This document shows positions 7,343-39,503 of a stretch of 39,503 nt of DNA, in pieces. The notes beneath the pieces are model-generated. The model saw only the letters and a list, made by a program, of their open reading frames with translations, was not told the DNA's origin and did not search any database. The position numbers and the translations under genes are program-made. Position 1 is the stretch's first letter, and each line of letters opens with the position of its first letter. Origin of the DNA: a bacterium (GTDB lineage Bacteria > Cyanobacteriota > Vampirovibrionia > Gastranaerophilales > Gastranaerophilaceae); NCBI GenBank assembly GCA_014803505.1, contig JAAVBM010000017.1:1-39503 (forward strand), in the 5' to 3' direction.

Positions 7343-10300
7343 TTAACCTTTAGAGAATACTGAAGAGGCGGCGTTGAGCTTCTTTTTCGCCTCCTCAACG
7401 TCTTTATAAACCACATATGCGCGAACGCTGCGGATTGAGTCAGTGGCGGCCCGGAGTTCTTTGATGGCAGCGGCCAGTTCTTTCAGGTCAGCCGCCGTGA
7501 CTGTATACGTTGAGTCCGTAAATCCGCCATCAGCAAATCCGGGCGCGGAAGGAGTGCCGGAAGTGACAATTTTATGGCGGCGGATGGCCTCAATCATCCC
7601 GACGGCGTTGATTACGCGCGGATTGTTCATGATGGGCTTCGGGACCACGTATTCGCCACGGTGTACCACTCCGGCCACTTCATAGCGGTCGCCGTCACCG
7701 GTGTAGCCGCCATCAGAATAACCGGTCAGGGTGCGTTGCGTGCTCTTGGTGGCCGCGCTCTGAGCCTCGGAGGTGGCAGAGGCAGCTGCATCGGAGACTG
7801 ACCCCGTAGAAGTGTGGCTCGGCTGCATATTCTTGACGCGGTCACGCTCGGCCTTGGCCTGCTTGACCTGCATGGCACCCGTGGCCGTCAACATGGCCGC
7901 GGCAATTCCGCCCCCGATTGGGCCCAGCTGAGCAAATGCGGTCATGATGGCCTGAGCGGTGTTGGCGATGATGTCGGCCACTTTGATAGCGAAGTTAACG
8001 TCGGCATACTTTTTCTGAATCTTCAGCTTTTCATTCTCCTTCTGCTCCTCCAGGGCCGTGGTGTCCTCGCCGTTATTCTTGGCCTGCTGAATCAGCACGT
8101 CGTATTTAGCCTCACTCTCGGCAATTTCGGCATCCTGCATGGCTGAAAACATTGAGGTGGCCAGTCCGGAGTAATAATCAAAATATTTCTTTGCGTTATT
8201 GACCCCGGCCTGCAGTCGCTTCTTCTGATATTCCTGCTCGGAAATCAGGCCCTGGTCGTGCATATTCTTCAGTGAGGCGAGCTCGCGCTCATATTCGTCG
8301 GCCCAAGTGGTTCCGGCGTTTGCCTTGAGGTCACGCATGGCCTCATCCTGCTGATAATTGAGGGCGGCGATTCTCCGGAGGTGTTCACTCTCCAGGGCTT
8401 CGGTATCTTCGCCCTGAGCCTTCTTGGCGGCGATTACGGCATCATACTCGGCGCTGAGCTGCTCGCGCAAGCGGTCAAACTTCATCGCAATCCCTTCGGC
8501 GCTGTCGGCATTGGTCTGCATCTCGCGAATCATTTCAACATACTTCGCCGTTTGTGTGAGCTCCTGCTGCTGTAACTTTTGCCGTTCTGCGGCGGCCTGT
8601 TCAAGCATCTTTGTTCGCTCATCCTCGCTCAGGGAGGTGGCCTCATAAATGGCCATTTCGCGCTCCTCAACAATCCGGAGCCGGTCTGCCGTTGCCTGGC
8701 GTTCCATCTCCAGGGCGTAGGCCTGAGATTGCTCCATGGTGACCTTTCCCTCGGCTGCAGCCTCCAGAACAAACATTTTTTGATGCTCATAGAAAGCCTC
8801 GGTGGCCTTCAGGCGGTCATCATAGGTTTGCAGGTCCTGTTGAAAAATCAGCTGCTCAATCTCGCGCTCGGCGGCGGCAATGCTTGCCTCGGCCTCGGCT
8901 TCCTTGGCGGTGATTTCGTCCAGGGTCTTTGTATGGGTCGCGTCCGTTTCGGCCCTCATCTGAGCCATGGCGTCCTGAATCTCCAGGGCATAGCGGATTT
9001 GTTCGCGGGCCTTTGCGATACTTTTATCAATGTTTGAGGCATCATTATTGCCCTCGATGGTGGCGACGTTCTTTTTATGCTCCGTTTCCAGGGGCTTTGT
9101 ATATTTGGCCAGAGAGTCCTCGCCATAAGTCCCCGGGGTTTTCGCCCCCTTCTTATTTTTATCGCCTGGCAGAGTCACGGGGTTGGCCTTGGGCGGTTCC
9201 GATTCTTCGGGTGTGGCCAGCTCGCCGGACTCCATGCGCTTCTTCATCTTTTCGCGGTAGGCTTCTGTGGCGGCTTTTTTCTCCTCATAGTTTTTCTGAG
9301 CTTCGGCGGCGGCATTATCGGCCTCAATCATTTTGTTGTTTCTGAAATTCGCACCGTTTCGATTGGCCCGTTGCGCGGCTCCGGAGAGATTCTTCTGCTC
9401 GCTCCGGCGTACATTTTCGGCGTTTTCCTTTGCATCATCGGCGGCGTCAAGAGCCGCTTCCTCCTCGGCGGCTAATTTTTCCAATTTGTCCTGATGGGCT
9501 TTAAGGCGCAACTCCTTCTCGAGAGAATCCAGATATTTATCCAGGGCTTCTCGGCTTGCGTCATACTTTCCGGTTGTTTCATCAATTGAAGCATTATAAC
9601 CGGGAATGATACGGTTAAGCTCGTCAATTGCCTTGCGGCGACGCTCCAGACTGAGGTTTTCATTTTCGGCTACCATTATCAGCGCCTCAATCTTGCCGCG
9701 CTGCTCGCCATACTGGCGCGATGCTTCGCGGCTTGCCTCGGTCCAGGCATCGGTGGTGGTTTTGGCGCCATCTGATGCGGAATTGTAGCCGATAATTGCG
9801 GCGGTCAGTGTGGCAATCAGGCCGACAACTAACATTATGGGGTTGGCCATCAGGGCGGCATTCCATGCGCGGGTAGCCACGGCGGCCAAGCCATCGGCCT
9901 TGGCTGACGCCATCATGGCCGTAATCTTAGCCCCGACAGCCTTGATGGCGTTGTAAATGTCAGTGACGAAGGAGCGGGTGGCCTGTGAGGCTAAAAGCGC
10001 GGCAACTTTATAGGCCACAAACGCCGTCACCGCGCCATTGAGGGCGGCACGCCCAAGGGCGGTTTTAGTCACCAGGTCAGAAACGAATTTTAAGAAGGAG
10101 CCAACCCCGCCCAGAACATAGAGCACGGCGGCGCCTACGCCTTTCAGTACCACGCCAAATCCGGAGAAGGCATCTATCCAGTCGCCAACAGCGTTAACCA
10201 GGTTAGTGGCCCACTGAAATAGAGTGCTGAGCACGGTGCGGAAGTCAAAGAATTTCAGCACCAGGCCCTCCACGGCTGACTCGAGCCCGGCGGCAGAGCC

Positions 10301-11614
10301 GGCGGCGTTATCGCCCATGGTTGTGGCCATCTGCTTAAAATCTTCGGTGCAGTCCGTGATAGAGTCGCGCAGGGCTCCGATATTGTCAGCTTCTGAGAGG
10401 AAGGTGGAGAACGCGGCCACTGACCTTTTATCGGTCAGCTCCAGGGCCGTGTTAAGGTCTACTCCGGCGGCGTTAAGATTCTTCAGGCCCTTGACCATAT
10501 CATCCAAGTTCTTGACCGGACCGCCCAAGGCCTTAGCCAGGTCGCCGTTAGAGTCGGCCAGACTCAGCAGGATGTTACGAGTGGCCGTTGCGGCGCTTGA
10601 GGCATCAAAGCCGGCATTTGAGAGCTGACCGAGTAGGGCGGTGGTCTCCTCTACCGTAAAGCCGAAGGAGGCGGCCACGGGGCCAACAGTGGAGAGCGAC
10701 GCCTGGAGCTTCTGGAAGTCCAAGGCGCTTGAGGTGGTGGCCACGGCAAAAGTGGCCATGACTGACTCGGCCTCGCTCGTGTCCTTACCAAACATGCGCA
10801 TAGCCGCGCCGGCAAAGGCCGCAGCACTCCCCAGGTCAGTATCAACGGCCTTGGCGAATCTCAGAGTGGCGGGTGTGAGCTTCTCGATGTCGTCAGCAAC
10901 AAAGCCCAATTTTGCCAGTTCCGTCTGCAGTTGGGTGACGTCAGAGGCCGTGGCCGTGGTCGTGCGGCCCAAGAGTTTGGCCTGCTCCGTCAGGGATGAG
11001 ATTCCCTGGATATTGGTTCCGAGGACTGCCGCGAGCTTCGAGTTGGCCTTCTCGAAGTTCATGATGGTCCCTATGAAGTCCCTGAACGCGCCGGTGACTT
11101 TGGTCACCAGGGTCACTCCGATGGCCAGCAGAGCGCCCTCCGCAATTTTGGCGATGGAGGGCAGCTGCTTCAGTTTATCCAGAAAAGAGGTTGACGGGGC
11201 CGTTGCATCCTTCAGGGCCTTTTCATGAGCTTTTATTTGCTCGTTTAGCTCCTTCCATTTTTCAGGGTAGAGGGATTTTGAGACGCGGTCCTGTTGCGCC
11301 TTGAGCTGCTTGAGTTCCTTGCGGAGCTCTGAGGCGCTTTTGCGCGACAAATCAACCGATGACTCCTGCTTTTTGATTTCCCGGTTATTCTTTTCAATCT
11401 CGCGGGTATTGGCCGCAATAGCTTCGTTGAGGCGCTTGAACTCTGCGGAGTGGTCGCCCTCCTGTTTGGTCAGGGCGGTAATTTCCCGGCGATACTCCTT
11501 ATTTTGTTCCTTGAGAGCCTGAGTCGCTCGGGTCAGTCGGTGAATCTCCTCCTGGGCCTTGGTGGCTCTGAGGTCTAATTCAACCGATATTTTATCGTTA
11601 TTCAGTTTAGCCAT
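7343..11614 (-). CDS. phage tail tape measure protein (TP901-like)
   Basis: At 1423 residues it is the longest gene in the window. The first 125 residues are a charged coiled coil. A TP901-type region (about 165-460) follows, with the typical TLRFAKAVDTDLGSAA and GFDASSAATATRNI stretches. Hydrophobic segments lie around 485-515 and 590-615, and long coiled coils fill about 630-1200. The product sets tail length and is ejected with the DNA. At about 3 residues per 0.45 nm a tail near 200 nm is expected; this is a family rule and was not measured. The ATG lies within a strong hairpin. Confidence 0.9.
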   Translation of the reverse strand: MAKLNNDKISVELDLRATKAQEEIHRLTRATQALKEQNKEYRREITALTKQEGDHSAEFKRLNEAIAANTREIEKNNREIKKQESSVDLSRKSASELRKELKQLKAQQDRVSKSLYPEKWKELNEQIKAHEKALKDATAPSTSFLDKLKQLPSIAKIAEGALLAIGVTLVTKVTGAFRDFIGTIMNFEKANSKLAAVLGTNIQGISSLTEQAKLLGRTTTATASDVTQLQTELAKLGFVADDIEKLTPATLRFAKAVDTDLGSAAAFAGAAMRMFGKDTSEAESVMATFAVATTSSALDFQKLQASLSTVGPVAASFGFTVEETTALLGQLSNAGFDASSAATATRNILLSLADSNGDLAKALGGPVKNLDDMVKGLKNLNAAGVDLNTALELTDKRSVAAFSTFLSEADNIGALRDSITDCTEDFKQMATTMGDNAAGSAAGLESAVEGLVLKFFDFRTVLSTLFQWATNLVNAVGDWIDAFSGFGVVLKGVGAAVLYVLGGVGSFLKFVSDLVTKTALGRAALNGAVTAFVAYKVAALLASQATRSFVTDIYNAIKAVGAKITAMMASAKADGLAAVATRAWNAALMANPIMLVVGLIATLTAAIIGYNSASDGAKTTTDAWTEASREASRQYGEQRGKIEALIMVAENENLSLERRRKAIDELNRIIPGYNASIDETTGKYDASREALDKYLDSLEKELRLKAHQDKLEKLAAEEEAALDAADDAKENAENVRRSEQKNLSGAAQRANRNGANFRNNKMIEADNAAAEAQKNYEEKKAATEAYREKMKKRMESGELATPEESEPPKANPVTLPGDKNKKGAKTPGTYGEDSLAKYTKPLETEHKKNVATIEGNNDASNIDKSIAKAREQIRYALEIQDAMAQMRAETDATHTKTLDEITAKEAEAEASIAAAEREIEQLIFQQDLQTYDDRLKATEAFYEHQKMFVLEAAAEGKVTMEQSQAYALEMERQATADRLRIVEEREMAIYEATSLSEDERTKMLEQAAAERQKLQQQELTQTAKYVEMIREMQTNADSAEGIAMKFDRLREQLSAEYDAVIAAKKAQGEDTEALESEHLRRIAALNYQQDEAMRDLKANAGTTWADEYERELASLKNMHDQGLISEQEYQKKRLQAGVNNAKKYFDYYSGLATSMFSAMQDAEIAESEAKYDVLIQQAKNNGEDTTALEEQKENEKLKIQKKYADVNFAIKVADIIANTAQAIMTAFAQLGPIGGGIAAAMLTATGAMQVKQAKAERDRVKNMQPSHTSTGSVSDAAASATSEAQSAATKSTQRTLTGYSDGGYTGDGDRYEVAGVVHRGEYVVPKPIMNNPRVINAVGMIEAIRRHKIVTSGTPSAPGFADGGFTDSTYTVTAADLKELAAAIKELRAATDSIRSVRAYVVYKDVEEAKKKLNAASSVFSKG

Positions 11615-11770: not shown

Positions 11771-12037
11771 TCAGCAGAAGGAGGGCGGGTCGAAGCGGTC
11801 GCCATCAGGATAGGCCAGGGTGCTGATATACGCATGAAGGCCAACCAGTGAGGTCAGATAGTCCTGCGTAGACATAAGGTTGTAGGGGTCGGGGTCTTCG
11901 GTTTCAATCTCCAGGATGAGGCGATGAATCAGGCCCTCAATCATCCGCAGGAAGTGTTCGCCCTGGTCATTTCTGATTTGCAGGTCGAGCAGGCACTTTT
12001 TCACGGCGTCGTTAATCTTTGGTTCCTTGGGAATCAT
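11771..12037 (-). CDS. 88-residue cassette protein, island copy
   Basis: This is a small acidic soluble protein with no recognised domain. It is about two-thirds identical by eye to the 87-residue protein at 32811-33074, with strongly kept KEPKIND, GEHFLR, IEGLIHR, PDPYN and AYPDGDRFDPP motifs. It overlaps the stop of the upstream membrane-protein gene (ATGA), so the two are co-translated. The conserved pairing of the two genes at two loci suggests that they work together at the membrane. It is probably expressed in the lysogen. Confidence 0.75.
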   Translation of the reverse strand: MIPKEPKINDAVKKCLLDLQIRNDQGEHFLRMIEGLIHRLILEIETEDPDPYNLMSTQDYLTSLVGLHAYISTLAYPDGDRFDPPSFC

Positions 12038-12297
12038 TGGTCACCTCCTTTCCGGATTGCGCGGGCGATGAAGGGGAGGATGAGGAGCATGGCGCCGGCA
12101 TAGGCCATTTCACCGCCGAAGACGTAAATGGCCAGCAGGGCAATTGCGAAGAGCAGCACGCCAAACATTCCCAGACAGAAGTCGGCAAAAGAGCCCAGGG
12201 CGGGGGTTGAGGACTTGGCGCGTGAAGTTGCGCCGGCAACGGTGACGGATTTGCGGCTCCGTGAGGCCGTCAGGTTAATTGCTTTCATTGAAGTCAT
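12034..12297 (-). CDS. two-TM small membrane protein, island copy
   Basis: This 87-residue protein has a basic, Ser/Thr/Arg-rich N-terminus (ASRSRKSV) and, after about residue 38, two hydrophobic segments (about 39-60 and 65-80) ending in a basic tail. It is a close paralogue of 33376-33642, and its first 37 codons also match the broken copy at 12560-12670. Start 12297 (MTSMKA) matches the MQMKA start of the paralogues; 12288 is possible. Its own promoter and structured leader lie upstream. A role in superinfection exclusion is a reasonable guess for a small prophage membrane protein with its own promoter, but it is unproven. Confidence 0.75.
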   Translation of the reverse strand: MTSMKAINLTASRSRKSVTVAGATSRAKSSTPALGSFADFCLGMFGVLLFAIALLAIYVFGGEMAYAGAMLLILPFIARAIRKGGDQ

Positions 12298-12500
12298 TTG
12301 ATGAAAGTTAAACAATATGTGAATAATCTCGTGAGAAAACAGAAAATCGGCTCCGCTTTCCCGTTGACTTCCACTCATCGCGAGCAGTGGGCGCATTAAC
12401 GCTCCACACGGGGGTCGGAACCGAATATGATTCAGAAGGGGCAAAATTTTTGCCCGCAGAGTTTGCGAGCATCTCGGCCCGCGATGTTTGGAAGTCACTG
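12286..12500 (-). ncRNA. structured leader, copy 2
   Basis: This leader lies between the promoter at 12501-12531 and the gene at 12297. A1 (12481-12497) can pair with A' (12364-12381) over about 17 bases with two mismatches. A2 (12286-12300) repeats the core of A1 (TGACTTC) across the start codon. Helix B (12416-12423) pairs with B' (12348-12355), including one G-U. ATGCTCG and GCGGGC-loop-GCCC elements are shared with the other two copies although the A sequences are entirely different. Confidence 0.6.
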
Positions 12501-12531
12501 CAAAGGTAAGCAAATTTTTTGAATCTGCAAA
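12501..12531 (-). promoter_or_regulatory. promoter of leader copy 2
   Basis: On the reverse strand TTTG (12528-12531) and TACCTTTG (12501-12508) are exactly 19 bases apart, a full match to the Bacteroidetes consensus. It begins about 30 bases from the breakpoint of the truncated gene copy. Confidence 0.75.
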
Positions 12532-12559
12532 CATTTTGCATCATTTTTGTCGCGGGCAC

Positions 12560-12670
12560 GGCAAAAGAGCCCAGGGCGGGGTTTGAGGACTTGGCGCGAG
12601 TGGCAGCGCCCGGAAGGGTGACGGACTTGCGGCTCCGTGAGGCCGTTGAGATTAATGCTTTCATTTGCAT
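12560..12670 (-). pseudogene. truncated copy of the two-TM membrane protein gene
   Basis: From ATG 12670 (MQMKALIS) 37 codons match the paralogues at 12034 and 33376 up to PALGSFA. At 12560 the homology stops, exactly before the membrane segments. The frame then runs into unrelated sequence and the next leader (open to 12308). The promoter and leader of this copy are complete. It is therefore either a decayed gene or a leader plus N-terminal fragment kept for its RNA. Confidence 0.7.
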
Positions 12671-12871
12671 CAGTGATTTATCCAAGGCAGACAAAAAAAA
12701 CGGCTGCCGTTCCGTTGGATAAATCACTGATGCTGTCTCGTCGCCGAGGGCAAAAAGATTCGGAAGGCAGCCGCAATGGCTGAATATGTCACGGGCATAA
12801 AAAAAGCCCGCAAGTGTATTGTCGAGCATTAACCGCGCCCGGCGGGACAGACATCTGTCAGTGATTTATCC
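12668..12871 (-). ncRNA. structured leader, copy 1
   Basis: A1 (12858-12871) lies at the predicted transcript start. A' (12715-12732) and A2 (12668-12685) form a perfect 18-bp inverted repeat, and A1 matches A2 over 14 bases, so A1 and A2 compete for A'. Between the arms of the A':A2 hairpin lies B' (12701-12714) followed by eight U, and B' pairs with B (12761-12773). A CGGGC/GCCCG hairpin with a U-rich loop lies at 12792-12810. The leader ends at the start codon of the truncated gene. Confidence 0.65.
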
Positions 12872-12875
12872 GCTG

Positions 12876-12906
12876 CAAAGTTACGGCGAAAATCTGAAAT
12901 ATGCAA
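12876..12906 (-). promoter_or_regulatory. promoter of leader copy 1
   Basis: The reverse strand reads TTGC, 19 bases, TAACTTTG (12876-12883). The predicted start point falls at the first bases of A1. Confidence 0.7.
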
Positions 12907-12916
12907 CTTTTAGCGC

Positions 12917-22668: not shown

Positions 22669-24369
22669 TTATTTCTTGGCGTGGCGCTCAAGGAAGGAGG
22701 CAATCGCCCCGGAAGCAACAAGAGCGGAAGAGCCGGCCCGTGCCGCCACAGCATCGCGCCAGTGGCGCCTCATCATCAGATATTTGAACGCATCGGAGAG
22801 GTTGGTGGAAAGTCGCGGCAACTTGCGCAATGGTAATTTTTCGGAGCGCTTATCCTTTGCAACTGATTTCACGTCGCCCCTATATTTAACCAGGGCGCGC
22901 GCCAGCTCAATCGAGCTCACCAGTTCCGGGCAGTTCTTAGAGTCAATCAGGAGCGCCGGAAGTTTGGCGTTTTGCCCGCTCATCAGCTCAATCATGAAGT
23001 CATACTCGGCATTTTGCCCAATATCGCCCTGCTTGCGCGACATAAGATTGACCGTCCACCCGGTTCTCGAGCCGGAGGCATCGCGTTCAACGGCATCGCG
23101 CATCTTACCGGCCAGGTCCTCGCCCTGGCTTTGGTAACTATTGCCGGAGCGGTCATAGTAGAGGTTAAGCACCTTGCATCGATGTCCGGCAAAGAAGCGC
23201 AAGAACTCATCGGCCAGATTGCGGATATATCCCGGCGGCAGTTCGTAGAAGTTTTTATGCACACGGTAACGAGAGCCCTCCTCCTGACCGATAACCAGCG
23301 AGAGCATATTGCCGAAGTCCATACCGCCATCCAGCGGGCGGGTAGGGTCAAGATATTGAAGCTCGGAAGAAACATAAGCGGCAACCCCAGAGAGGCATCC
23401 GTCCATGTACTTATTCGATTCGTCAAAGTTAACATAAAAGCGGGCGTCGCGGCGCACAGTGGGACGCATACCCAGAACCGACTTATAAAACTCGTGGCGC
23501 TCCAGGGCACCGTTATAGAGGCGCTTGGCATAGTCAACCGTTAGAATATCGATATTTACAAAACTTGAGAGGTTTGCAAAAAACGTTTGGCCCTTTCGGA
23601 GCTTTAAGAGGCCCTCCTCGTAAAACTCAATTTTGCGGCGTAACCGTTCAATCTTAGCCTCGTCGGGCTTGTCAGTTCCGGAGAGTTTCACCATCTTCAG
23701 GCGCAACCGGTTCAACTCTCCCGCCGCCTGCAATATCTTGACAATTCTTTCCGGGTCCATCTCGGAAGCATAGCGAAAAAACCAGTCAAACTCGCCCTCT
23801 GTAACATCGGGCATATCGGTCGTAATCGTAACGCCGCCATATAAGTGACATCGCCCGTAAGTTATAGCATCGCCGCGGAGAATAGGCATAACGCGCGCCG
23901 CTTTGCTGTCTGAGGCGTATTTTGCCTCATCATAGAGCAAATGCGCCACGGACTTACCGGCCAGGAGCGACGGATTATCCAAAGAGCCCAGGAATATAAC
24001 CGTACCATTCCAAAAGCTATAAACATGGCGGTAATCATCGACAATCACGGAGCAGCGCCTGCGCCATTCTTCCGGAGGGCGTTTCCCCTTAACATAATGC
24101 ACACCCTCAATCAATCCGGCCAGTTTCCAACCGTTTTGCACGGCGGGCATGATATTATCAACGAGATTGGCATAAGTATTGGCCACAATAGCGATGGGCG
24201 CGCCGGGCATGAGCCTGACGCACCTCTCTGACCGATGGGCGAGTATTACGGTACTCTTGGCCACACCGCGCCCGCCAACGAGCACAAAATTTGTCGCATC
24301 AATCCAGTCGCAAAGAATCAGGGCATATGAAGCAAAGCGGGCCTCGGCGTTCAAATCATTCTTCTTCAT
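22669..24369 (-). CDS. terL: terminase large subunit
   Basis: This 566-residue packaging motor has a Walker A motif VGGRGVAKST (31-40), a Walker B motif HLLYDEA with D147 and E148, and a nuclease domain with D351 in GGMDFGN and D406 in LYYDRSGN. The C-terminus has a NLSDAFKYLMM segment typical of the family. It cuts and translocates DNA into the prohead. It overlaps the upstream gene by 14 bases. Terminase and portal are separated by the lysis genes. Confidence 0.95.
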   Translation of the reverse strand: MKKNDLNAEARFASYALILCDWIDATNFVLVGGRGVAKSTVILAHRSERCVRLMPGAPIAIVANTYANLVDNIMPAVQNGWKLAGLIEGVHYVKGKRPPEEWRRRCSVIVDDYRHVYSFWNGTVIFLGSLDNPSLLAGKSVAHLLYDEAKYASDSKAARVMPILRGDAITYGRCHLYGGVTITTDMPDVTEGEFDWFFRYASEMDPERIVKILQAAGELNRLRLKMVKLSGTDKPDEAKIERLRRKIEFYEEGLLKLRKGQTFFANLSSFVNIDILTVDYAKRLYNGALERHEFYKSVLGMRPTVRRDARFYVNFDESNKYMDGCLSGVAAYVSSELQYLDPTRPLDGGMDFGNMLSLVIGQEEGSRYRVHKNFYELPPGYIRNLADEFLRFFAGHRCKVLNLYYDRSGNSYQSQGEDLAGKMRDAVERDASGSRTGWTVNLMSRKQGDIGQNAEYDFMIELMSGQNAKLPALLIDSKNCPELVSSIELARALVKYRGDVKSVAKDKRSEKLPLRKLPRLSTNLSDAFKYLMMRRHWRDAVAARAGSSALVASGAIASFLERHAKK

Positions 24370-25367: not shown

Positions 25368-26148
25368 TCCCCAAACTTTGAATAATTTTTAACTCTCTAT
25401 CAGATAAAGCGGCTCGTTCCGCGGCGGCTCGTTCCGCGGCGGCTCGTTCCGCGGCGGCTCGTTCCGCGGCGGCTCGTTCACTGAGTAGGAATCCGCCGCC
25501 AAAGATTGCACCCTTATAGTTGTCCAGCTTCCTAACATGGGCACAATCAGAGGCGCCAATTTCAAGCGATACACCCCTGAAGGCTAATCGCCGCAAAGTT
25601 GCAGAGCTGACCATGTGAATCGGATGCTCTATTTTACGTTGTGCTTTCGGTTCTTTTTTCTGAGCTGCGGCCACTTGTTTGGATAATTCGCCGGCTACAA
25701 TTATTTTAGGGTCTCCCCCTAACATGTTAGTGACAAACCCGGTCGGGACTTCTGCGCCGTTCTCGTAGACAATAGGCGTGCCGATTATAATATATGTAGT
25801 ATCAACCAATTCATTGGCGCTATTCATCATAGTCAGGCCCGGAGCAAAAAGAAAATATTTAATCCCCCGTTTATTATAAAAGCGACGAATCTTTGCCAAC
25901 ATGGAAAATGGCGGATTATCAATCACCACAGAGCCGGGCGGATAATCAAATGTTTCGTAATCACCTCCCGGCCAAAAAGGGCGCACGACTTCCACCCCGT
26001 CCAGAGGTATAATCCGCTCGTTAACCCAGTCACGCACCAGCTGATAAATATGCGGCGGAGTGTAGCAGTCATCGGTCGTTTTCTTGGGCTTGAACTTATC
26101 AACGAATCCGTCGTAATCCTCAAAACGTTCCTTGCGAGTCTGTTTCAT
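25360..26148 (-). CDS. DNA adenine methyltransferase-like protein
   Basis: This 262-residue protein carries DNPPFS (77-82), motif IV of N6-adenine methyltransferases, preceded by RPFWPGGDYE (56-65) in the place of motif I and by DCYTPPHIY (27-35). This layout is closest to M.EcoRI-type enzymes. Motif I is degenerate, so activity is uncertain. The C-terminus has five tandem ERAAA units encoded by a 15-bp DNA repeat. It may protect phage DNA from host restriction or mark the packaging site. It overlaps the upstream gene by 29 bases. Confidence 0.7.
   Translation of the reverse strand: MKQTRKERFEDYDGFVDKFKPKKTTDDCYTPPHIYQLVRDWVNERIIPLDGVEVVRPFWPGGDYETFDYPPGSVVIDNPPFSMLAKIRRFYNKRGIKYFLFAPGLTMMNSANELVDTTYIIIGTPIVYENGAEVPTGFVTNMLGGDPKIIVAGELSKQVAAAQKKEPKAQRKIEHPIHMVSSATLRRLAFRGVSLEIGASDCAHVRKLDNYKGAIFGGGFLLSERAAAERAAAERAAAERAAAERAALSDRELKIIQSLGNG
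25409..25479. repeat. 15-bp tandem repeat in the methyltransferase gene
   Basis: Four perfect units of GCGGCTCGTTCCGCG plus an 11-base partial unit. Each adds one ERAAA pentapeptide, so copy-number change would keep the frame. Confidence 0.95.
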
Positions 26149-30353: not shown

Positions 30354-31214
30354 TTAAATTTCATTGACCTTCGCCAGAACTGATTGAGCCAGAACCCAAC
30401 GCACTGCGTCGGCAACTGTGCCCTGCTCGTCGATATATCCGGCGGCAACGGCCTGAGCAGCGTCAAACATTTCGCCGCGAAACAGCGGGAGCTCCGGGTC
30501 ATAGGTAATTCCGAGATTCTTGGCCACTGTTTCCGCGAAAAGTCGGTGAATCTTTTCGGCGTGCTCCTTGAAGGGCTGCTCGTCGCCATTATCCTCCAGG
30601 GCGCGGACCTCTTTATTTTTCAGGTCGGCGGTGTCGGGATAAATCACGCTGTAATCGATGCCGTTCTGCTTGAAGAACTCGCGGAATGAATAGTGAGTAA
30701 TCATCACGCCAACGCTACCCACTTCACAAAGTGGCGAAGCGATAAAAGTGCGGTCAGCTGCTGAACCGAGCCAGAAGTGGGCCGAGGCCATCGTTCCGGT
30801 CACGACTGTGGCCGTTGGCTTCGAGCAGTTGCGGATAAGTTCCGCGGCTGCGTCAACACGTGAAATCATTCCCCCGGGGCCATCAATCTCCAGAACAATG
30901 CCACAAACGCGCGGGTTAGCCTCAGCGCGCTCAATCTGATGGATGAGCCACTGAGTCTCCCAGGCCAGGAGCATCCCCTGGAGCTGAATAACCGCAACGG
31001 AGTCCTGCGGAAGGTTGACATCGTCCAGCTCATACCATTGAGCCAGATAAGGAGCGCCCGTGGCTTGAGCCGTACACTTTTGGCACCCGAGAAGTTCTGC
31101 CGCGCCGGCAAGATTGCCGGCGGCAATTGCGGGCATAATCAGAGCAACGGCCCCCTCGAGGTCGTTGCGACGGATTCCCCAGTCATCAGAAAAAAATTTA
31201 TATAAGCGATTCAT
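30354..31214 (-). CDS. S49-family capsid maturation protease
   Basis: From ATG 31214 (MNRLYKFFSDDW; the longer frame begins with TTG) the protein has 286 residues. The SppA/ClpP-type fold is clear: VAVIQLQGMLL, then EIDGPGGMIS (109-118), then TGTMASAHFWLG with the likely nucleophile Ser144, then EVGSVGVMITHYSF. In the family a Ser-Lys dyad is used, and the Lys is probably in ADLKNKE. It processes the capsid and scaffold before packaging. Confidence 0.88.
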   Translation of the reverse strand: MNRLYKFFSDDWGIRRNDLEGAVALIMPAIAAGNLAGAAELLGCQKCTAQATGAPYLAQWYELDDVNLPQDSVAVIQLQGMLLAWETQWLIHQIERAEANPRVCGIVLEIDGPGGMISRVDAAAELIRNCSKPTATVVTGTMASAHFWLGSAADRTFIASPLCEVGSVGVMITHYSFREFFKQNGIDYSVIYPDTADLKNKEVRALEDNGDEQPFKEHAEKIHRLFAETVAKNLGITYDPELPLFRGEMFDAAQAVAAGYIDEQGTVADAVRWVLAQSVLAKVNEI

Positions 31215-31266
31215 TTCGTCAATTTTTCGGCAAATTAACGAAACAACGCGCGGGCGTGGAAGGACT

Positions 31267-31674
31267 TTAAAGCGCAAAAATCGGGTCCGGACCGGTGCTT
31301 GTACCCTTTAGAGTGACGTTGATGCCGTCAACGTCGGTTGTGAATGACAGAGCCATCGGCCAGGTAACTGACCCGCAAACGCGGTTATTCCCCATGGAAT
31401 CCCGATAAAATGCAATCAGGCGGCGCGTCCTCAGGCGCGTGAGCTCTGAAAGGGTGTCGGCGGTCAGGTCTGAGCGCTGGAAGGTTATCTCGTTTGCGGT
31501 CAGGCCGTTTTTCTGTGAGCTGCTGACCGTGACAGTCCCCGGAATGGCGACGGCATCGGCCTCCTTATCATAGAGGGCAACGTTGGCCAAATGATTGGCC
31601 ACATAAAACATTTTGACCTGCTCAACGTCAACCAGACGGAGGTCATGAGCAACTGTTGCGGCTGTGGTTCTCAT
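31267..31674 (-). CDS. small virion-region protein
   Basis: This 135-residue, strand-rich protein is the first gene of the capsid operon. It starts MRTTAATVAHDLRLVDVEQV and ends VTLKGTSTGPDPIFAL. No family is recognised. The lack of helices and membrane segments suggests a decoration, head-tail or tail tube protein. Confidence 0.55.
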   Translation of the reverse strand: MRTTAATVAHDLRLVDVEQVKMFYVANHLANVALYDKEADAVAIPGTVTVSSSQKNGLTANEITFQRSDLTADTLSELTRLRTRRLIAFYRDSMGNNRVCGSVTWPMALSFTTDVDGINVTLKGTSTGPDPIFAL

Positions 31675-32810: not shown

Positions 32811-33074
32811 TTAGATGGCAGGCGGGTCAAAGCGGTCGCCATCGGGATAGGCCAGAGTTCCGATGATGGAGTGGAGGCCGACCAGCGAGGCGAGATACTC
32901 CTGAGCCGGCATATAATTGTAGGGGTCGGGGACGTCATTGTCCATCTCAATGATGATGCGATGAATCAGGCCCTCAATCGTCCGCAGGAAGTGTTCGCCC
33001 CGGTCATTCTTGACCTGTAGGGAAAGCAGTATGGCCTTGATGTCGTCGTTAATCTTTGGTTCCTTGGAGGTCAT
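32811..33074 (-). CDS. 87-residue cassette protein, early-region copy
   Basis: This is a paralogue of 11771-12037 with the same KEPKIND, GEHFLR, IEGLIHR, PDPYN and YPDGDRFDPP motifs and no known domain. Its ATG overlaps the stop of the 102-residue gene (ATGA). It is the last gene before the strong terminator at 32749. Being kept twice in one genome next to the same membrane protein suggests that both act as a pair. Confidence 0.75.
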   Translation of the reverse strand: MTSKEPKINDDIKAILLSLQVKNDRGEHFLRTIEGLIHRIIIEMDNDVPDPYNYMPAQEYLASLVGLHSIIGTLAYPDGDRFDPPAI

Positions 33075-33379
33075 GATTCACCTCCTTTCTCAATTTCAGC
33101 CCAGGGGCGGGCGGGATCTTCAATAAATCGGCGCGTTTGACCAAAGGAGTCCGTGGCGGTTCCGTCGGGATGGAAGGTGCCGAGGTAGTCCCATTTGTGG
33201 AGCTCATTGTTATATACGCGATGTTCTACGTCGGCCTGCATCGTCCGGGCCATGTCACGGGCCAATACCTGACCGTCAAACATTGGGCCCAGTTCGTCGT
33301 GTTGACTGAGTTGAATGATTCCGCCGCGGTCTGAACGTTTCAGCGGCGTAAAACTGTGATGATAAATTGTGCGGTTCAT
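33071..33379 (-). CDS. 102-residue protein, present only in the early-region cassette
   Basis: This soluble protein starts MNRTIYHHSFTPLKRSD and has aromatic and charged segments (YNNELHKWDYLGTFHPDG). No family is recognised. It is joined by ATGA overlaps to both neighbours, so all three genes form one translational unit. The island copy of the cassette lacks it, so it was gained here or lost there. Confidence 0.65.
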   Translation of the reverse strand: MNRTIYHHSFTPLKRSDRGGIIQLSQHDELGPMFDGQVLARDMARTMQADVEHRVYNNELHKWDYLGTFHPDGTATDSFGQTRRFIEDPARPWAEIEKGGES

Positions 33380-33642
33380 TCGTTTCCTCCTTTCTTGATA
33401 GCGTTAACAATAAAGGGCATAATCAGGAGCAGCGCGCCGGCATAAGCCATTTCTCCGCCGATGACGTAAACGGCCAGCAGGGCAATAGCGAAGAGCAGCA
33501 CGCCGAACATTCCCAGACAGAAGTCGGCGAAAGAGCCCAAGGCGGGGCGGGAGGTTGAAGACTTGGCGCGAGATGTTGTGCCCGAAAGATTGACGGATTT
33601 GCGGCTCCGGGAGGCCGTTGAGATAAATGCTTTCATTTGCAT
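33376..33642 (-). CDS. two-TM small membrane protein, early-region copy
   Basis: ATG 33642 (MQMKAFIS) gives 88 residues. The N-terminal 40 residues are polar and basic (TASRSRKSV), then come two membrane segments (GVLLFAIALLAVYVIGG and AGALLLIMPFIVNAI). It is a close paralogue of 12034-12297. It is preceded by its own promoter and structured leader. A membrane-located role (immunity, exclusion or lysis control) is inferred. Confidence 0.75.
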   Translation of the reverse strand: MQMKAFISTASRSRKSVNLSGTTSRAKSSTSRPALGSFADFCLGMFGVLLFAIALLAVYVIGGEMAYAGALLLIMPFIVNAIKKGGNE

Positions 33643-33836
33643 CAGGTTGTAGCAAGACAGACAAAAAAACGGCTGCCGTTCCGTTGCTACAACCTGACAC
33701 ATTCTCGTCGCCGAGCATGAAAGATTCGGAAGGCAGCCATAAAGACTGAGTATTTTACGGACATAAAAAAAGCCCGCAAATGATATTTCGAGCATTAACC
33801 GAGCCCGGCGGGACAGAATGTCTGTCAGATTGTAGC
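33640..33836 (-). ncRNA. structured leader, copy 3
   Basis: A1 (33823-33836), A' (33684-33699) and A2 (33640-33655) show the same competing pairing as in the island copies but with different sequence (TTGCTACAACCTGA type). A1:A' holds over 14 positions with one G-U, and A':A2 is perfect over 14. B (33727-33738) pairs with B' (33671-33683), followed by seven U. The CCCGC...GCGGGC-U7 element is also kept. Confidence 0.65.
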
Positions 33837-33840
33837 GATG

Positions 33841-33871
33841 CAAAGTTACGACAAAAATTTGGATTATGCAA
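33841..33871 (-). promoter_or_regulatory. promoter of leader copy 3
   Basis: The reverse strand reads TTGC, 19 bases, TAACTTTG (33841-33848). The start point coincides with A1, as in copy 1. Confidence 0.7.
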
Positions 33872-34199: not shown

Positions 34200-34709
34200 T
34201 TAAAAGAGCTTCGGTTGAGGGTTGAGACGTTCGGCGCGCAACTGTTCCAGCTGCCTCTCCAACTCCTTGCGGTGCTCGCGGCTCTCCTTCTCCGTCGCGG
34301 CCACGTCGCTGATTTTCCTCATCAGCCGCCGCTCCTCCTGGTTGGCATCTTCCGCCGCCTGCATCCGCCCGACGAAATGGTCAAATAGCACGTCGTAACA
34401 CTCCCGGCGGTAACGACTGACGGTCTCCCGAGCTTCGGGTGCAACCTTCCCGGGGTTAATAGTCGCAAGCCATCCGAACACATAGCGGAGCGGCAAAGCA
34501 AACAGTTCGCGGTCTTTGCAGTCGGCGGCAACTGTGGTGATTATCGCCACACTTGGAGAAAGAAATTCGTCGTTAATGATTTTGTAACGTTGGGAGCTGA
34601 AGTCAATGCCCAGAGCGTCGCAAACAGGCTTGACGGCCACGTAGGCCTCGCCATGGTGGTCAACGGTCATGATTTCAACCCCGTTGATGGTGGTAACTTC
34701 TTGTTTCAT
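34200..34709 (-). CDS. antirepressor-like protein (P22 Ant N-terminal domain)
   Basis: ATG 34709 (MKQEVTTINGVEIMT) gives 169 residues; a longer reading to 34769 is unlikely. The N-terminal domain has the pattern of phage antirepressors: AYVAVKPVCDALGIDFSSQ, then LFALPLRYVFGWLATI. The C-terminal 45 residues are a coiled coil (ESREHRKELERQLEQLRAER). Family members bind or block the lysogeny repressor. Its place in the leftward early operon fits induction control. Confidence 0.8.
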   Translation of the reverse strand: MKQEVTTINGVEIMTVDHHGEAYVAVKPVCDALGIDFSSQRYKIINDEFLSPSVAIITTVAADCKDRELFALPLRYVFGWLATINPGKVAPEARETVSRYRRECYDVLFDHFVGRMQAAEDANQEERRLMRKISDVAATEKESREHRKELERQLEQLRAERLNPQPKLF

Positions 34710-34744
34710 TTTTGCGTTTTTTTGGTAATTGGTAAATGGTGGGT

Positions 34745-35088
34745 CTATCGATGGGAGCCACAGCGACACTCATCGCCGGCTTCCGGGGCCTGCGCGTCAA
34801 GTTTGGCACGGAAATCAAGAACGGCCGGGTCGCCGGGGTGCTTACGGCAGTAGGCCCAGACGGCAGGAAAAACGGTCAGCCTCATCTCCGGCGCATTCTC
34901 AAGCACATGGAGTATGCCTGCGGCAATGTGTTTTAGTGAGCCATAGATCCCACAAATCATGTTATTGGACCGGTTTGGTTGCAAGCCTATGAACAACCCG
35001 TGCTCAATGGGTTTCCCGTATTTCTTGGCGGGCAGGCCGGGGTCGTTTAGCAGTTCGATGATTTCGTCGGTGATTGTTTTTTTCCCAT
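34745..35088 (-). pseudogene. small early gene with an A7 frameshift
   Basis: ATG 35088 begins MGKK at a run of seven A (35077-35083) and then meets a stop. The -1 frame continues TITDEIIELLNDPGLPAKKY and on to GDECRCGSHR, ending at 34745, about 114 residues with protein-like composition. Inside that frame only a TTG at 34996 could start a shorter product. An extra A or a -1 slip on A AAA AAA gives the full protein. It may be an indel, an assembly error or programmed slippage. Function unknown. Confidence 0.6.
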
Positions 35089-39428: not shown

Positions 39429-39503
39429 TCCGCTTGGGACCTCTCATGACTCCGCACCCCGCGGAGTCATTCGTGTTTAATATTCTGATATTCACTCAGT
39501 TAA
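39429..39503 (+). repeat. attR core repeat (75 bp, to window end)
   Basis: Identical to 659-733. Only the last 14 bases of tRNA-Cys are present here, without the rest of a tRNA. Confidence 0.95.
39446..39480 (+). terminator. second copy of the tRNA-Cys terminator in attR
   Basis: The same 10-bp stem and ACCCC loop as at 676-700. It would stop transcription of the + strand regulator operon from leaving the prophage. Confidence 0.7.

Follow-up and report, generated by a model that had tools for sequence, protein, structure and literature searches.

Classical attenuators and riboswitches control expression by alternative helices that choose between a terminator and another fold. Amongst phage RNAs, the CI RNA of P4, as described in the available excerpt of its source, brings transcription to a stop by base-pairing with two sites, seqA upstream of CI and seqC downstream of it (PMC4825925), and in c4 RNA, according to partial texts of two sources, segment a′ gives specificity and segment b′ covers the ribosome site, the basis of P1/P7 heteroimmunity (PMC5320573, PMC12197685). 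In excerpted form, further sources describe c4 and c4-a1b1 motifs in Proteobacteria and phages (PMC2864571) as well as phage-linked structured RNAs in Bacteroidetes (PMC8040213). With respect to RNAs such as the one treated here in Bacteroides or Bacteroidales phages, or in Bacteroidota, there was none among the literature matches listed. As judged from comparative sequence analysis, this RNA, a leader preceding small operons in a prophage, is a genuine RNA family that lacks an Rfam match and has predicted alternative three-way pairing.

The prophage and its leaders

The window, i.e., the whole stretch of 39,503 bases that was analysed, is an entire contig of the host assembly and reads as a tailed prophage, with a tRNA (602-672) and genes for an integrase (867-2021), a tape measure protein (7343-11614), a terminase-like protein (22669-24369) and an S49 protease (30354-31277). 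A 75-bp exact repeat at 659-733 and 39429-39503, which starts inside the 3′ end of the tRNA and closes the contig, is probably the att site. The promoters in the window have the form TTTG-N19-TAnnTTTG, which we take to be the Bacteroidales consensus, and this form, together with the titles of the metagenome-assembled genomes (MAGs) holding homologues, points to Bacteroidales as the host order of the prophage. A 15-nt tandem repeat (GCGGCTCGTTCCGCG, about five units) is found at 25409-25483 within a conserved phage gene (25360-26148).

Three leader copies are present, all on the minus strand, namely c1 (12906-12657), c2 (12531-12286) and c3 (33871-33640), the first two of them where an earlier note on this DNA had placed such leaders (12286..12871). 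Each is preceded by a promoter of the form TTTG/TTG-N19-TAnnTTTG ending 3-4 nt before a segment called A1, and A1 lies 3-5 nt after TAnnTTTG in 22 of the 25 copies compared in this study. From 5′ to 3′, the parts of the leader are the promoter, A1, the hairpins P1a, P2a, P2 (with a U-rich loop), P3 (which has bases in common with segment B1) and P4, the central segment A′, AA, B′ and a U run, after which come B2, A2 and the start codon of gene 1. The conserved stretches lie mostly in helices and in the AACGGA junction.

In c1, the promoter (TTGC-N19-TAACTTTG, 12876..12906) is followed by A1 (12858..12871), the presumed transcript start, by the hairpins P1a (GACAG:CTGTC, 12846..12859), P2a (containing ATGCTCG, 12824..12840), P2 (GCGGGC...GCCCG, 12789..12813), P3 (CAGCC:GGCTG, 12768..12782, overlapping B1) and P4 (with a GCGA loop, 12737..12748), and by A′ (12715..12732). 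B1 (12761..12773) and B′ (12701..12714) are the 5′ and 3′ strands of a crossing helix; behind B′ lie eight U (12693..12700), then B2 (CTGCC, 12686..12690), the alternative partner of B′, and finally A2 (12668..12685), the alternative partner of A′, which extends into the first ATG. In c3, the same kind of promoter (TTGC-N19-TAACTTTG, 33841..33871) precedes A1 (33823..33836), the five hairpins together with B1 (33704..33826, B1 at 33727-33738), A′ (33684..33699), B′ with a run of seven U (33663..33683) and an A2 that includes the start codon (33640..33655). In c2, the promoter (TTTG-N19-TACCTTTG, 12501..12531) is followed by A1 (12480..12497), hairpins similar to P2a and P2 (12439..12476), B1 (12409..12424), A′ (12364..12382), B′ with a weak U-rich run (12347..12363) and, at the gene start, a weak A2 of 7 nt (TGACTTC, 12290..12296).

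The three copies agree to a large extent with the pairing that the earlier note had described. Its perfect A′:A2 stem in c1, given as 18 pairs, comprises 19 pairs around a 29-nt loop, next to 14 perfect pairs in A1:A′; c3 has 14 pairs in A1:A′, one of them U.G, and 18 in A′:A2, and the two mismatches reported for A1:A′ of c2 are there, together with one wobble. The statement that A1 and A2 both complement A′ holds for c1 and c3, whereas the A2 of c2 is confined to its seven nucleotides. Apart from the A stems, c1 and c3 share 83% of their positions, while their A cores differ at 14 of 17 or 14 of 18 positions, depending on the core taken, and they do so coherently across A1, A′ and A2. The exact three-way repeat in c1 is 14 nt long, as compared to a maximum of 7 in 1000 dinucleotide shuffles; that in c3, where the wobble in A1 breaks the repeat, is 7 nt, a length matched by 13 of 1000 shuffles.

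All genes behind the leaders lie on the minus strand. Gene 1 of c1 (12559..12670) is truncated and corresponds only to the N-terminal part of its homologues. Behind c2 there are gene 1 (12034..12297), coding for a small protein with hydrophobic stretches as judged by eye, and gene 2 (88 aa, 11771..12037), with an overlapping start and a strong Shine-Dalgarno sequence; behind c3 there are gene 1 (33376..33642), a second gene (102 aa, 33071..33379), again with a strong Shine-Dalgarno sequence, and a third (87 aa, 32811..33074) that is homologous to 11771-12037 (68% identity). In general, gene 1 codes for a small protein often starting with MKA or MNA, and gene 2 for another small protein whose start mostly overlaps the stop of gene 1 and mostly has a strong Shine-Dalgarno sequence. 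The gene products in the window gave no match to a PHROGs family and none to a Pfam family above cut-off. Notably, given that Bacteroidia are regarded as using Shine-Dalgarno pairing rather little, the non-first genes of these operons mostly have a near-perfect Shine-Dalgarno sequence (AAAGGAGGTGA) overlapping the previous stop (12037-12051, 33377-33393 and 33072-33088 in the window; also at the loci L030, L031, L042, L055 and others), and because of this overlap gene 1 often ends in KGG.

A gene resembling the P22_AR_N antirepressor family (34200-34769) lies upstream of c3. In P1 the antirepressor is under the control of c4 RNA; in the window the antirepressor-like gene precedes the leader and does not follow it.

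Homologous leaders

Including the window, 25 copies from 11 sources were compared, 22 of them from the ten other sources. The window holds three copies, the L030 contig five, the L037/L047 contig four plus a fragment, and the L042, L048/L055 and L056 contigs two each; in the genome of L041 three copies lie on three contigs, and elsewhere they are single. A related phage was located via its tape measure on the contig L026/L030, where a leader that shares the scaffold but has an A of its own lies upstream of the tape measure gene. Search patterns built on the junction, B′, the U run and GTC, or on B and B′, none of which touched A, led to ten leaders in Bacteroidales MAGs and viral contigs (L031, L037, L047, L041, L042, L048, L055, L051, L056 and L058). 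A covariance model, as the earlier note had proposed to build, added one more when run on 383 genomes of the order (L033, from a different family), and a second one, run on seven whole records, added L067, L069, L070, L071, L072, L073, L074 and L075 as well as L056b; L030a was identified by direct reading of the sequence. Amongst 383 genomes of the window's family (a drawn sample under strict filters), model R2 found the RNA in a single one, the window's own.

With regard to the yield of the patterns, the genome-contig pattern gave 19 stretches, of which seven were strong full-length matches and 12 scored below 24 bits or were unmatched, and the viral pattern gave five, namely two that were already known, L056 and L058, which match, and L057, with no match at the threshold used. 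A junction-only descriptor was too loose and served just for inspecting copies. Protein searches with gene 1 and gene 2 against 147 relatives, viral contigs, phage records and genome contigs gave no matches beyond the window itself, and amongst 194 genomes a protein search gave one weak match (L009, E=0.008). The leaders of L037 and L055 had no blastn match among phage records. Rejected candidates comprise two weak blastn leader matches (L012 and L013, on reading) and two covariance-model matches, L034, which reads as coding sequence, and L035, which is partial (19 bits). Next to the chance match in L012, the stretch L012:1360-1560 looks by eye like a diversity-generating retroelement repeat. 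At gathering score, neither the window nor any of 15 homologous loci matched Rfam, and for 12280-12910 there was no match at E up to 5.

The fragment just mentioned (L037:133-212; contig CAOKFI010000022.1, about 40.1-40.2 kb; L076 is its duplicate) consists only of A′, B′ and the U run, and by eye it has 13 nt of A′ in common with the L047 leader, which lies on this contig too; it is either a remnant or a solo antisense element. A variant leader type (c2, L056b, L073 and perhaps L030a) carries a different B sequence, and in c2 and L056b the A2-like match follows the junction at a distance of about 65 nt, as compared to about 31 nt otherwise. Both in the window (12286-12871) and in L056:963-1558, a type-1 leader and a cut-short operon are followed by a type-2 leader, an arrangement which suggests repeated insertion of leaders into these operons.

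Evidence for RNA pairing

In alignment A11 (14 copies), 90.5% of the cells are paired in contrast to 71.8% after shuffling, 22 pairs have changed on both sides, and none of 500 shuffles attains any of the five measures used. For A1:A′, 95.2% of the cells are paired and both partners have changed in 11 of 12 pairs; for hairpin P1a, these figures are 100% and five of five. Alignment A14, whose 24 distinct rows include two type-2 copies and one fragment, gives 91.5% versus 68.3% (0/500) and 96.8% for A1:A′, and in both alignments pairing drops to 34-41% when the partners are slid by 1-3 columns; both lack c2 and L030a, were fitted to the structure and are biased towards it.

A fairer test uses 13 copies with the segments cut at conserved anchors and compares the pairing energies of own and foreign partners, A2 having been used in no model or search pattern. 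For A1:A′, the own mean is -19.3 kcal/mol as compared to -5.7 for 156 foreign combinations, with two copies weaker than the best foreign value (-15.5), namely L058 (-14.9) and L056a (-5.2), which shows hardly any such pairing. For A2:A′, the own mean is -26.4 kcal/mol (range -20.5 to -33.1) and the foreign one -8.3 (best -17.7), and all 13 copies pair with their own A′. Both A1 and A2 thus pair with A′ in 12 of 13 anchored copies, the exception being A1 of L056a, and the covariation across homologues that the earlier note had named as support for its reading is there for A1:A′, with own pairing of A′:A2 throughout. A2:A′ is the stronger helix in 13/13 anchored copies and in 17 of 22 with wider windows, in which the junction and A2 were picked for best own pairing, so that the anchored test is the fairer one. 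With these wider windows the own mean of A1:A′ is -24.6 (25 copies) and the foreign one -8.2 (600 combinations), with overlapping tails; the best foreign pairing is that of A1 of L037 with A′ of L071, on the same contig (-22.3), and L070/L074 also cross-pair (-20.1). Three copies of this set of 25 lack A2 pairing beyond -14, and c2 and L073 are doubtful: no clear A2 is found in L030a, L075, L033 and L073, and that of c2 is weak.

B1:B′ crosses A1:A′ and is followed by the U run, as in a pseudoknotted terminator. In all 13 anchored copies the helix (-24.4 to -32.3 kcal/mol) precedes a U-rich run, which is uninterrupted for at least 6 U in 10 of the 13, TTT having been required by two search patterns; a G+C-rich helix with a U run directly behind it is the layout of a predicted intrinsic terminator. 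The main helix is 94% paired, with six of 11 pairs invariant and the end pair 202-254 paired in 42.9%. Of the earlier statement that helix B is kept with compensating changes and crosses the A helices, the crossing and the pairing therefore stand, whereas the compensating changes are few. B2 reads CUGCC in 11 of 13 copies, CUGUC in c3 and CUUGCC in L042, its sequence being in part required by the segment-cutting rule and two search patterns. Accordingly, A′-B′ has two predicted options, an upstream one with A1 and B1, i.e., the pseudoknot with the terminator-like end, and a downstream one with B2 and A2, i.e., a hairpin reaching to the start codon (-29.5 to -41.4 kcal/mol). Covariation amongst homologues lends good support to a structured RNA in which the pairings exclude each other, with a predicted pseudoknot and a terminator/translation layout.

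Variability of the A segment

With 1.20 bits per column in the A1 core as compared to 0.94 for the rest, A is among the most variable parts of the leader, although three sites must change together. Between c1 and c3 the A core differs at 14/18 positions in contrast to 26/152 outside (p=3e-7), and between L042 and L067, on the same contig, at 11/18 in contrast to 27/151 (p=2e-4); for L070/L074 the excess has p=0.013. The comparison of pairs, made without L076, the fragment L037:133-212, L056b and L073, gave uncorrected p<0.05 for 11 of the closest 16 of 210 pairs, the others being L037/L047 (0.066), L070/L072 (0.1), L031/L041 (0.29), L047/L042 (0.091) and L072/L074 (0.15). Three of the six same-contig pairs amongst these 16 are thus non-significant (L037/L047, L070/L072 and L072/L074). 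Across the full set of 91 pairs in A11, the similarity of A lies just mildly below that of the rest (0.43 vs 0.52), and in 31 of the 91 A is at least as alike. A single contig can hold as many as five leaders with unlike A segments. Where a contig has several full copies, their A sequences differ, though just slightly between L037 and L071, and the same A in two phages was not seen among the copies compared. The faster change of A may be partly neutral, as the scaffold motifs are constrained in sequence and A only in pairing.

Possible mechanisms and their alternatives

We tentatively hold, at close to an even chance, that the leader is an antisense-type phage control RNA with a logic like that of P4 CI and P1 c4, although it was found in neither family. 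In this reading, transcription would start at A1, and A1:A′ and B1:B′ would be the first helices to form and would halt the polymerase at the U run, giving an RNA of about 180-240 nt. On read-through, the usually stronger A′:A2 hairpin would close the start of gene 1, and gene 2 with it via the gene overlap. Start at A1, early termination and read-through lock are likely as three steps, and from the sequences we infer that both folds are 'off', as expected for an operon silent in the lysogen. The mechanism would be one of antisense-type termination plus a translation lock. Finally, the short RNA made by a lysogen might close matching-A transcripts of an incoming phage in trans, with A as a specificity tag that diversifies. 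This trans action is the least certain step, and a role in immunity is plausible. It is proposed because in several close pairs the A core has turned over more quickly than the scaffold, because full copies on one contig differ in A, because c1 keeps full pairing despite its truncated gene, and because the fragment L037:133-212 carries A′-B′-U with an L047-like A′. However, A′ being held by A1 in the terminated RNA could hinder trans pairing, and specificity is not clean, in that the foreign A1:A′ tail overlaps the own one and that L037 and L071 cross-pair. A more far-reaching form, which we regard as rather unlikely, is a multi-allelic RNA immunity with up to five largely orthogonal locks per phage, A′-B′ being terminator and trans tag at once, diversification being driven by superinfection, and orphan leaders (L030a, the fragment L037:133-212 and c1 with its truncated gene) being memory-like.

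The main rival, along the lines of the cis-acting switch that the earlier note had suggested, is a purely cis-acting attenuator or translation switch, in which the two pairings choose between termination and read-through or an open start codon, the input being a phage or host signal (a protein, an antiterminator or translation), with no trans RNA. This is a serious possibility, albeit with the odds somewhat against it: all steps are possible within a single transcript, the mutually exclusive helices, the U run after B′, the start-codon hairpin and the overlap of P3 with B1 all suit such a switch, and the A of L037 and L071, on one contig, is alike enough for cross-pairing. What it leaves without a reason is the replacement of A at three sites on a scaffold that is 82-83% identical (c1/c3, L042/L067), as well as the perfect A′:A2 and A1:A′ of c1 in front of a truncated gene, though the truncation may be recent. 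Of the cis-acting claim, then, the RNA with alternative pairing and the terminator/translation layout stand, while its restriction to cis is contested by the variability of A and the P4/c4-like layout.

Two further readings would do without RNA pairing. A1, A′ and A2 form two direct repeats and one inverted repeat, and inverted repeats near promoters are common in Bacteroidales, so that they might be operators or recombination sites with RNA pairing as a by-product; DNA repeats should, however, show equal numbers of G.U and A.C mismatches, while the A helices contain 28 G.U, 3 A.C and 7 others (G.U vs A.C p=2.3e-6, for copies that are not fully independent, the A1 part being counted without L056a and the A2 part without c2, L056b, L073 and the copies lacking a clear A2). 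On this excess of G.U, which argues for selection on RNA pairing, the DNA-level reading was rejected as very unlikely; the covarying hairpins P1a, P2a and P4, the crossing B helix and the fixed position of A relative to the promoter and the U run likewise stand against it. Hardly conceivable is an N-terminal coding extension, in which the frame from ATGCTCG would be translated and the repeats incidental, even though the frame beginning at ATGCTCG in c1 continues into gene 1, and that of gene 1 in c3 stays open as far back as 33843. It was rejected for lack of a codon-position pattern, the substitutions between c1 and c3 being spread 4/4/5 over the codon positions, and there is a 1-nt gap in the c1/c3 alignment just before the conserved P4 region. 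ATGCTCG, the conservation of which the earlier note had pointed out, is one strand of the kept hairpin P2a (GRGC:GCYC; 100% of cells paired) and no start codon; L031 has ACGCTCG, with ACG in place of ATG.

If trans-acting, the antisense-type control RNA proposed here would provide Bacteroidota with an RNA-based system of phage immunity or operon specificity, and one scaffold with its natural alleles, several of which occur together on the same phage, would allow the origin of P4/P1-type antisense specificities to be studied. Even if confined to cis, it is a well-supported RNA family without an Rfam match and with an unusual pseudoknotted terminator-like end.

Comparison with known systems

In contrast to attenuators and riboswitches, the leader has no recognised ligand pocket or leader peptide, and its switching helix is among its most variable parts. 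IsrK of Gifsy-1, as far as the excerpted account goes, is similar in that it is likewise the leader RNA of a prophage, exists in two isoforms and precedes a small first gene from which translation continues to the next; IsrK, however, frees the ribosome site of orf45 in trans, and that excerpt makes no mention of a three-way repeat with replaced alleles (PMC4825925).

According to the partial sources cited above, c4 RNA (RF01695) is, like the leader, a phage antisense RNA directed against an operon start region by means of a variable segment, and in all 13 anchored copies A′ is complementary to the operon start. The RF01695 covariance model gave no match at gathering score in the window or in the 15 homologous loci. 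c4 reportedly lies upstream of its target on one transcript. It has three stem-loops, with a′ and b′ in the loops, and is cut by RNase P down to about 77 nt, whereas the leader lacks this form, its A′ and B′ being adjacent and each a strand of a pseudoknot helix.

As in P4 CI RNA, where by the excerpted account a segment of the short RNA is complementary to upstream and downstream segments of the same transcript and the operon it precedes is terminated early, as is predicted for the leader (PMC4825925), one segment of the leader is complementary to an upstream and a downstream one in 12 of 13 anchored copies. P4 CI RNA is processed and belongs to a satellite phage, whereas the leader is apparently bounded by its promoter and U run and resides in a tailed Bacteroidales prophage that, with its integrase, tape measure, terminase-like and S49 protease genes, is not a P4-like satellite. 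Unlike P4, which was compared by description only, the leader pairs through a pseudoknotted terminator and occurs in several copies per contig. The logic of P4 and P1 thus matches that of the leader, while the family differs in having no Rfam match, another fold and another host phylum, and we read the leader as a candidate antisense control or immunity RNA that occurs in multiple copies and is unrelated to P4 CI and P1 c4.
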